Shown piece after piece: positions 11,098 through 13,550 of a DNA stretch of 23,704 nucleotides. Within the stretch, counting starts at the first letter, position 1; each line of letters starts with the position of its first letter. The notes beneath the pieces were generated by a model. It worked only from the letters and a program-made list of their open reading frames with translations, searched no databases and had not been told where the DNA came from. Both the position numbers and the translations under genes were made by a program. Source of the DNA: a virus; IMG/VR virus record IMGVR_UViG_3300034101_001728, positions 1 through 23,704 of that record. One strand, given 5' to 3'.

Positions 11098-12006
11098 CTA
11101 CGCCGCTGGCCTATCGCCGCCCTGCGGCGGCTCGTTCAGATCCAGCGGCGGCAGGTAGTCCAGCCCCCGGCTCGTCTCTGTGATCCTCGGGTCAAGGTAG
11201 TGCCCGCGAGTCATCGCCGGATCGGCATGGCCGAGGTGGGCTGTTGCGTCCCCACCGGCAGCCGCGACGTAAGAGGCCGACGCCTTGCGAATCGCGTGGA
11301 ACGCCCTGGAGGGCACGCCAGCCCGTTTGCACAGCAGACGCATCGACGCATAGTGCGACAGCGGATGGCCCGTCCTGGGCCACACCAGAGCGTCTGGCGA
11401 GCGTCTGAACTTCTCCAGTTCGGCGGCAAGCTCGGCCGTGATCGGGGCCACGAGATCCCGTTCCCGGCCCTTGCGGGTTTCCGCGAGGAAAAGCAGCCGA
11501 CCGTGCGTCGTGTCCACCTCGCGCCACCGAAGGGCCAGGAGCTCGCCGATACGGCACCCGGTCTGCCACGCCGTCTGCAGCAGGGTGCTCCACCACCAGG
11601 CGGACGGCAGCCCTGACAAGAGCGTGCGGCGTTGCCTGGCCGTCTTCACGAGTTGGCTCATCTCCTCGACCGTGTAGGCCGTTGGCGCCCGCTTCACCTT
11701 CTTTTGTCGCGGCAGGCCCGGCCATTCGCCTGGGTGAAGCTTCTTCCGGCATGCCCAGTTCCAGATCGCCAGCAACTGGCTGCGATCCTTGGCGACCGTA
11801 TGCGGGCTGACCACGCGGCCTCGGCACGGGTTGGTCGCCCGCCACCGCAGGAACTTGGACACCGCTACGTCTTCGAGATCCGTGACCAGCGGCTCGCGCC
11901 CCAAGAACTCCTTGAACTTGTCAATGGTGTGACCATAGAGCGACACCGACCGATCCGACAGATTCATCAGCAGGGCGTACCGCTCCAACAACTCGTGCAG
12001 CGTCAT
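11098..12006 (-). CDS. int: Tyrosine recombinase / phage integrase
   Basis: A 302-residue site-specific recombinase on the minus strand, with GGGAGGTG as ribosome site just before its ATG. The N-terminal SAM-like/core-binding domain spans about residues 1-100 ('LLERYALLMNLSDRSVSLY'). The catalytic domain holds the full set of residues: R152 in 'TGCRIGELLAL', K179 in 'TRKGRERD', H237 and R240 in 'FHAIRKAS', H260 in 'HLGHADPAM' and Y270 in 'RGHYLDP'. The enzyme would insert and excise the phage genome. It is convergent with the genes on its left and divergent from the early operon. It appears intact, so the phage is probably temperate. Confidence 0.95.
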   Translation of the reverse strand: MTLHELLERYALLMNLSDRSVSLYGHTIDKFKEFLGREPLVTDLEDVAVSKFLRWRATNPCRGRVVSPHTVAKDRSQLLAIWNWACRKKLHPGEWPGLPRQKKVKRAPTAYTVEEMSQLVKTARQRRTLLSGLPSAWWWSTLLQTAWQTGCRIGELLALRWREVDTTHGRLLFLAETRKGRERDLVAPITAELAAELEKFRRSPDALVWPRTGHPLSHYASMRLLCKRAGVPSRAFHAIRKASASYVAAAGGDATAHLGHADPAMTRGHYLDPRITETSRGLDYLPPLDLNEPPQGGDRPAA

Positions 12007-12150: not shown

Positions 12151-12178
12151 TTGATCTGCACTGATCCGACGATATGAT
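12151..12178 (+). promoter_or_regulatory. Early promoter P1 (sigma70-like)
   Basis: TTGATC (12151-12156), a 16-base spacer and TATGAT (12173-12178). The block CGACGATATGATT (12167-12179) is repeated exactly in P2. The ATG at 12185 lies six bases after the -10 element, i.e. at the predicted transcription start, so the message would be leaderless or nearly so. Confidence 0.6.
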
Positions 12179-12184
12179 TCTGGG

Positions 12185-12535
12185 ATGATTGCTATGGCAA
12201 ACCCGTTTAAGGGTTACATGACCGTGCGGCAGGTGATGGGCGAGATCAACGCTCGAGCTGCCAGCACTGTCACCAGACTGATCTACGACGAGGACAAGCC
12301 ACGTCCAGAGGGGAAGCGGCTTGCCGGCACCCTCATTCCAGGCCACGGCTGGATGATCCAGCGAAAGAGCGTGGCGGAGTTCATCGCGGAGGAGGCCGCT
12401 CGTCCACCTGGCGTGGGATTTCCGCGTGGGCGCGACCGCAGCGGGCAGGATGATGCCCCCAAGGCAGCCGCCAAGAAGCCAGCCAAGCGGGCCGCAAAGG
12501 TTGCCAAGCCTGCAAAGAAGGCCAGGGGCGGCTGA
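12185..12535 (+). CDS. HTH (excisionase-like) DNA-binding protein with Lys/Ala-rich tail
   Basis: A 116-residue protein; start ATG 12185 lies at the predicted +1 of P1, and ATG 12194 (113 aa) is an alternative. The N-terminal domain ('MTVRQVMGEINARAASTVTR' ... 'PGHGWMIQRKSVAEFIAEEA') resembles small MerR/excisionase-type winged helices, in which 'W.I....V..F' is the wing end. The last 30 residues are almost only Lys, Ala, Pro and Arg ('KAAAKKPAKRAAKVAKPAKK'), like the C-terminal tail of histone H1 or bacterial HU/H1-like proteins. First gene of the early operon, divergent to int: candidate Xis and/or lysogeny regulator (inference). Confidence 0.65.
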   Translation: MIAMANPFKGYMTVRQVMGEINARAASTVTRLIYDEDKPRPEGKRLAGTLIPGHGWMIQRKSVAEFIAEEAARPPGVGFPRGRDRSGQDDAPKAAAKKPAKRAAKVAKPAKKARGG

Positions 12536-12576
12536 AAAGTCTTTGGAATGTAGGTTTTCCCCGGCATTTTCACCCC

Positions 12577-12605
12577 TTGAATATGCAAAGATGCGACGAT
12601 ATGAT
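12577..12605 (+). promoter_or_regulatory. Early promoter P2 (sigma70-like), near copy of P1
   Basis: TTGAAT (12577-12582), a 17-base spacer and TATGAT (12600-12605). It shares the 13-mer CGACGATATGATT and the flanking TGCA with P1. As in P1, an ATG (12612) lies six bases after the -10 element. The block ATATGCAAAGA (12581-12591) recurs in P3. Confidence 0.65.
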
Positions 12606-12611
12606 TGGTGC

Positions 12612-12833
12612 ATGCGAGCGAATGAGACTCGCGGACGCCAGCCGGGAGACGAAACCATGAAGCTTCTGACCGCCACCTACGACTTCGACTACAAGCGAAT
12701 CGTTATGCACTACATGGCAGACGGCAACGCGGAGTTTGTGACGATGGGGCCTGTGACCGACGCCGAGATTCAGACTGCGTTCGCCGCTGAGGGTGGCAAC
12801 GTTGCCGGATGGACGGTCACTCTTTCCTGGTAG
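12612..12833 (+). CDS. Small early protein, unknown (73 aa, or 58 aa from ATG 12657)
   Basis: Two starts are plausible. ATG 12612 coincides with the predicted +1 of promoter P2 (leaderless, 73 aa). ATG 12657 has GGGAGA a few bases upstream and yields 58 aa, 'MKLLTATYDFDYKRIVMHYM' and on to 'GWTVTLSW'. The common part is a compact alpha/beta chain with several aromatic residues and no recognisable family. It is an early gene, so roles such as host takeover or control are possible, but nothing shows which. Confidence 0.5.
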   Translation: MRANETRGRQPGDETMKLLTATYDFDYKRIVMHYMADGNAEFVTMGPVTDAEIQTAFAAEGGNVAGWTVTLSW

Positions 12834-13124: not shown

Positions 13125-13154
13125 CATATGCAAAGACCTCCGTATACATATGCA
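13121..13154 (+). promoter_or_regulatory. Promoter P3 with 22-bp-spaced direct repeats
   Basis: TTGACA (13121-13126), a 16-base spacer and TATACA (13143-13148) form the best sigma70-like promoter in the window. ACATATGCA occurs at 13124-13132 and again at 13146-13154, 22 bases apart, covering the -35 and -10 elements like paired operators. No gene starts until 13278; the stretch 13155-13222 holds nothing else I can identify. Confidence 0.6.
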
Positions 13155-13222
13155 CCGATTCACTCATAAAACGCTTTAGTGTACAGGATTTCCAGTCCCC
13201 TCATTTTGTTGGTTGCCCCCGC

Positions 13223-13250
13223 TTGACGCCCAACTGAACAGATGTATATT
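13223..13250 (+). promoter_or_regulatory. Promoter P4 (sigma70-like)
   Basis: TTGACG (13223-13228), a 16-base spacer and TATATT (13245-13250). The start of transcription would fall near 13257, leaving about 20 bases of leader with AAAGGAG before ATG 13278. It does not share the ATATGCA block of P1-P3. Confidence 0.6.
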
Positions 13251-13277
13251 CGCGCCCCACACAAAAGGAGAATCGCC

Positions 13278-13550
13278 ATGCACGCTGATCCCCACGCCCG
13301 TGAATACCTCGCCGCCGTCGCCGCCATGCCCGAGCACACCGTTTCGGGCGGCACGACGCGGCTCATCGACGGGCAGCTGGTCACGACCTACGCGGTCGGC
13401 GACCGCATCCGCTTCATCGAGAAGGGCCGCACGCTTAACGGCGTCGTGGTCGAGGTGCTGACCGAGGACACCTACCACGTTCGGCGGCATGTGCCCGACG
13501 TTGGCAACGCCCACTACGCAGTGACGGCCGACCAGATCGTGCCGTTCTGA
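13278..13550 (+). CDS. Small SH3-like protein, unknown function
   Basis: A 90-residue protein with a clear ribosome site AAAGGAG (13264-13270). The middle, 'YAVGDRIRFIEKGRTLNGVV' followed by 'VEVLTEDTYHVRRHV', has the alternating-strand look of an SH3/KOW-like small barrel. Such folds often bind nucleic acid, but no diagnostic family motif is visible. It is first in the transcript from P4 and directly precedes the structured leader of recT, so it may be co-transcribed with the recombination module. Confidence 0.6.
   Translation: MHADPHAREYLAAVAAMPEHTVSGGTTRLIDGQLVTTYAVGDRIRFIEKGRTLNGVVVEVLTEDTYHVRRHVPDVGNAHYAVTADQIVPF

Follow-up and report, generated by a model that had tools for sequence, protein, structure and literature searches.

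A probable leaderless regulator gene and a hairpin-headed early transcript in a putative immunity-like switch of uncultured temperate phages

Introduction

Does an ATG that lies where transcription should begin mark a leaderless gene? The question is raised twice by a 23.7-kb virus record (23,704 nt; IMGVR_UViG_3300034101_001728), analysed here at its full length and referred to as the window. Two of its promoters, P1 and P2, place an ATG six bases beyond the -10 element, and a TANNNT sequence some 12 bp ahead of the start is a mark of leaderless bacterial genes (PMC3160421). A reading made from the sequence alone had proposed that both promoters produce leaderless mRNAs, or that an operator/promoter cassette had been copied within the early region. 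Since a tyrosine integrase gene lies just to the left of P1, and RecT-like, methyltransferase, sliding-clamp-like and tail genes were recognized elsewhere in the window by PHROG comparison, the natural reading is that the window is a piece of a temperate phage genome. Features of the region are listed in Table 1.

Table 1. Features between the integrase gene and the candidate promoter P3
Feature	Position	Strand	Remarks
Tyrosine integrase	11098..12006	-	Divergent from P1; PHROG 1 integrase, 7e-37; Pfam PF00589 above cutoff
Promoter P1	12151..12178	+	-35-like TTGATC, spacer 16 nt, TATGAT; layout shared by 92 distinct relatives
Operator-like repeat, copy 1, at P1	12154..12179	+	Co-varies with HTH family
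Small winged-HTH regulator gene, 116 aa, probably leaderless	12185..12535	+	ATG at predicted +1; another ATG in frame at 12194
Promoter P2	12577..12605	+	-35-like TTGAAT, spacer 17 nt, TATGAT
Operator-like repeat, copy 2, at P2	12581..12606	+	Co-varies with HTH family
Predicted 5'-terminal RNA hairpin, GCGAG-CGAATGAGA-CTCGC	12614..12632	+	ATG 12612 overlaps the hairpin foot and is not conserved as a start
Shine-Dalgarno GGGAGA of P2 gene	12644..12649	+	Consensus in relatives GGAG at -12 to -9
First P2 gene, 58 aa	12657..12833	+	Likely start ATG 12657; variable position in relatives
Second small ORF downstream of P2	12885..13124	+	Ends inside P3
Candidate promoter P3	13121..13148	+	TTGACA, spacer 16 nt, TATACA; layout conserved in relatives
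Operator-like copy at P3, CATATGCAAAGA	13125..13136	+	
Operator-like copy at P3, CATATGCACCGA	13147..13158	+	

Results

Two promoters share an extended motif

Both promoters proved to be present as first described, with TATGAT at 12173-12178 (P1) and 12600-12605 (P2) and an ATG six bases on, at 12185 and 12612, giving TATGAT-N6-ATG at 12173-12187 and 12600-12614. The sequence they have in common is longer than the sequence-only reading had noted, and extends over 26 bases of which 22 (85%) are identical. Within it, CGACGATATGATT occurs as exact copies at 12167-12179 and 12594-12606; with up to 2 mismatches allowed, there are 2 occurrences in the window versus 0.26 expected. The extended 23-mer ATMTGCAMNGATNCGACGATATG is likewise found twice in the window, and 0 times in 100 shuffles. 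TATGAT-N6-ATG alone, with at most 1 mismatch, occurs 3 times versus 0.91 expected; the motif is short, and its significance comes from relatives rather than from the window. In those relatives the bases between the -10 element and +1 (12179-12184 and 12606-12611 in the window) are G/C-rich, GGGGC being the commonest sequence ahead of the P1 ATG, and this stretch may bear on promoter control.

The P1 gene has the signature of a leaderless gene

To avoid choosing sites by the motif itself, we built a profile from the HTH proteins of relatives minus their first eight residues and applied it to every reading frame of the fetched loci, the seeds of the profile themselves being P1 genes that carry the motif. 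It recovered 109 distinct genes, and although frame was not demanded, 98 of these have an in-frame ATG 4-8 nt past the best -10 element. Of the remaining matches, one has an ATG out of frame, at 14; the others, which include unrelated HTH genes and more distant integrase relatives (L087-L090), have no ATG nearby. Removal of near-copies left 92 distinct P1 genes, which share ancestry, so that counts made on them are not counts of independent events.

Conservation of the spacing was the check proposed for the original idea, and at P1 it held: the TANNNT -10 element ends 6, 7 or 8 nt before the in-frame ATG in 61, 29 and 2 of the 92 genes, respectively. None of the 92 has a Shine-Dalgarno-like 4-mer (GGAG, AGGA or GAGG) upstream of this ATG. 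Further ATGs at offsets 3-15 are in frame in every instance (68/68), and the third positions of codons 2 and 3 have the highest per-base entropy, a pattern also seen in codon 5, past the second ATG. The 317 promoter-like sites of the fetched loci have their ATG most often at an offset of 6-7 (104 sites), with 0-2 at each of the offsets 3-5 and 8-11. When relatives were anchored on the integrase instead, the -10-N6/7-ATG layout was kept despite differing small proteins and promoter sequences. Leaderless translation of the P1 gene from 12185, on an mRNA predicted to start at that position, is well supported by these comparisons, and the first half of the twin-leaderless proposal survives: 92 distinct genes have an in-frame ATG at the predicted +1, lack a Shine-Dalgarno sequence and show coding-type wobble. 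The relatives make up a large group of uncultured, temperate phages, and the comparisons support a P1 regulator gene that is leaderless across the group. In L087-L090, an SD-led GTG start (GGAGGTG..GTG) stands in place of the leaderless ATG of the window, which indicates that the start state has changed within the group.

P2 is predicted to head a transcript with a conserved hairpin

At P2, the same check gave a different result. In 103 distinct relatives with the hairpin core, the codon at +1 is ATG in 67, ACG in 20, TGG in 7, GTG in 6 and TCG in 3, so the ATG is replaced in 36 of 103. Nor is the reading frame kept, since the distances to the next start fall into the three frames as 63, 19 and 17 among 99 leaders (36 out of frame), and a conserved in-frame start at +1 is thus absent. 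What is conserved is the arrangement further downstream: 93 of the 99 leaders have an SD-like motif ahead of the next start. At about ten loci the stem is GTCAGG/CCTGAC with the same type of loop, and there the ATG is gone while the hairpin and the Shine-Dalgarno sequence are kept. Because hairpin, Shine-Dalgarno sequence and downstream start are conserved and ATG 12612 is not, translation of the P2 gene most likely starts at 12657 behind GGGAGA. The relatives contradict leaderless translation from 12612, and loss of both the frame and the ATG rules it out as a candidate.

The hairpin of the window folds as a single strand with a z of -2.4, and its consensus in relatives is GCGAG-CRAWTGAGA-CTCGC. 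In an alignment of 20 sequences, 96.7% of stem cells are paired, versus 74.0% when shuffled, with 35 double changes, the sites having been picked partly by complementarity so that these counts lean toward structure. When transcripts were located by P1 anchoring and a promoter pattern, a stem of at least 5 bp was found in the first 42 nt of 75 of 80, versus 15.6% of shuffles, many of these loci having originally been fetched by the hairpin pattern; the loop is 9 nt long in nearly all. At least 119 stretches of viral contigs contain the element. A single copy per contig is the rule (36 of 39 matching records), and the proteins encoded behind it are diverse (102 distinct proteins in 52 clusters). 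The leader matches no Rfam family, either at the gathering score or at E 5, and neither the leader nor the regulator has a relative among the INPHARED phages. The hairpin may act as a 5'-end stabilizer or as an antitermination signal. A scan of genomes for the hairpin gave nine matches, eight of them without the promoter layout. The ninth (L221), which has the full P1/P2 layout, is a 3.4-kb contig from a metagenome-assembled genome labelled Proteobacteria; it is possibly misbinned and its link to a host uncertain, and for this reason we name no host.

Two other assignments of the translation starts can be weighed against these data. That both ATGs are leaderless starts is suggested by the identical -10-N6-ATG geometry of P1 and P2 in the window, and the P2 ATG, where present, is in frame with the next start, without an intervening stop, in 44 of the 67 relatives. 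Against this stand the ATG and frame losses already described, stop codons inside several of the in-frame P2 leaders, and the alternative stem, which removes the ATG yet leaves the hairpin and Shine-Dalgarno sequence in place; we consider this assignment extremely improbable. A different possibility is that the P1 gene has a short leader, with transcription from 12185 and translation from the second in-frame start at 12194. Codons 3-5 include ATG, GTG or TTG in 90 of the 92 P1 genes, versus 2-38 of 92 in other, later three-codon windows, and codon 4 is ATG in 63, GCA in 10, GTG in 8 and TTG in 5, with other hydrophobic codons almost never found. Ribosomes may accordingly begin at codons 3-5 on a leader of roughly 9 nt, or may use both starts. 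Yet the first ATG is in frame in 92/92 genes, the codons between the two starts have the wobble pattern of coding sequence, two genes lack a second start, and the second start has no Shine-Dalgarno sequence of its own. Exclusive use of the second start therefore seems rather improbable to us, and leaderless translation from 12185 is the reading we carry forward.

Putative operators at three promoters change with the regulator

An immunity region has, at several promoters, operators cognate to the regulator encoded within it. What was found here is co-variation in sequence between operator-like sites and the HTH protein. The mean similarity between the P1 and P2 spacers is 7.4 within a phage versus 5.10 (sd 0.47) when phages are swapped (0/5000), in a comparison across ten HTH clusters. 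A P3-like site with the cognate operator, usually in two tandem copies, lies about 0.2-1.6 kb downstream of P2 at most loci examined, which represent the window's own HTH family and six others; a few of the loci examined (e.g., L047, L148 and L120) have no P3-like site with the operator. These data support the view that P1, P2 and P3 carry a putative operator varying in step with the HTH protein. A fourth promoter-like site, TTGACG-16-TATATT, is present at 13223-13280, with the Shine-Dalgarno sequence AAAAGGAGA ahead of an ATG at 13278, and TTGACGCCCAACTGA in this region is similar to the P2 start of a different HTH family.

The P1 protein is modelled as a winged HTH (mean pLDDT 74). The model fits BldC with a Z of 6.9 and the Pukovnik Xis with a Z of 6.8, both below the Z of 8 at which kinship would be settled, and its other fold neighbours include Tn916 Xis, TorI and RdfS; the best Foldseek match is weak (E 0.62). 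The protein of the window has no Pfam or PHROG match, and three relatives match HTH_17 (PF12728) above the Pfam cutoff.

These observations bear on two further explanations. A single cassette duplicated recently in the window would account for the 22 of 26 identical bases at P1 and P2. Relatives of every HTH family, however, have both promoters, with an operator of their own common to the two, and different elements follow P1 and P2. The idea of a shared operator is supported, in that one type of operator recurs at three promoters in each HTH family; a recent copying event in the window is very improbable, and we take the relatives to rule it out. The remaining alternative concerns function. 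When a basic winged-HTH protein is encoded next to an integrase, excision may be its first role and regulation its second, and it is conceivable that this one is primarily an excisionase (recombination directionality factor), that its sites lie near promoters by chance, and that another protein is the repressor. The adjoining integrase gene and the fold neighbours, which include the Pukovnik and Tn916 Xis proteins, TorI and RdfS, favour this explanation. It has to contend with sites that lie over the -35 and -10 elements at three promoters and change along with the HTH family, and no second regulator gene was identified between the integrase and P2. We judge a primary excisionase role to be unlikely, while giving it appreciable weight.

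Discussion

Our results are probably best explained by an immunity-like switch in which a leaderless, self-controlling regulator of HTH_17 type governs its own promoter and two early promoters. The P1 mRNA would begin at, or 1-2 bases from, ATG 12185, and the small winged-HTH regulator would be made from this leaderless mRNA, in which another in-frame start follows nine bases later. The regulator is predicted to bind the shared operator overlapping P1, P2 and P3. Repression rather than activation is suggested by the position of this operator over the -35 and -10 elements, and the bound regulator would limit its own synthesis and keep the early promoters down. When free, P2 would give rise to an mRNA headed by the conserved hairpin, with an ordinary Shine-Dalgarno start at 12657. 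More tentatively, the architecture itself may be one that is undescribed, combining a leaderless regulator mRNA with conserved paired in-frame starts (one an AUG at +1, the other 2-4 codons on) and an early transcript whose 5'-terminal hairpin, of a new class, might work in cis, with RNA polymerase (antitermination), mRNA stability or the ribosome as its target. Of the original idea, one half holds, in that P1 appears to be leaderless, and the other half, P2, reveals a different device that apparently belongs to the same switch.

Regulators of the lambda type belong to a different HTH class from the winged, HTH_17/MerR-like protein of the window, which also differs in its tandem in-frame starts. 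What the systems have in common is a phage switch regulator encoded by an mRNA that starts at its AUG, as is the case for phage lambda cI and PY54 cI/cro (PMC4488713), together with operators at promoters. CvkR, a MerR-type repressor of V-K CRISPR-associated transposons, is likewise a mobile-element regulator made from a leaderless mRNA; its binding site is the cas12k promoter, and the data tend to speak against autoregulation (PMC9938897), whereas in the window the putative operator is also present at the regulator's own promoter.

The resemblance to the Pukovnik Xis, TorI and Tn916 Xis lies in the predicted fold and in the position of the gene beside an integrase. Cox of phage P2 and Apl of phage 186 act as both excisionase and repressor. 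The protein described here differs from the Xis, Cox and Apl proteins in that putative operators at three promoters co-vary with it. The group offers a sequence-based case of a leaderless phage regulator kept across ten HTH clusters while operators changed, which makes selection for the missing leader testable, and it yields a ready set of matched regulator/operator pairs.

It also yields a widespread, unnamed RNA element heading an early operon. The HK022 put RNA is similar in that it is structured and lies close to where a phage early transcript begins, but it comprises two stem-loops in about 70 nt (PMC9378689), whereas the P2 leader has one 19-nt hairpin at its 5' end, followed by a Shine-Dalgarno sequence and a start within 45 nt. 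Cluster K mycobacteriophages carry 11-19 copies per genome of a 13-mer, the SAS (PMC3203893). Like the SAS/ESAS elements, the P2 hairpin is noncoding, conserved and located upstream of phage genes that are unrelated to one another; unlike them, it is usually present in one copy per contig and is tied to one promoter. For comparison with lambda nut, which consists of boxA and a boxB hairpin and works with an N-like protein, the P2 hairpin has the 9-nt loop CGAATGAGA.
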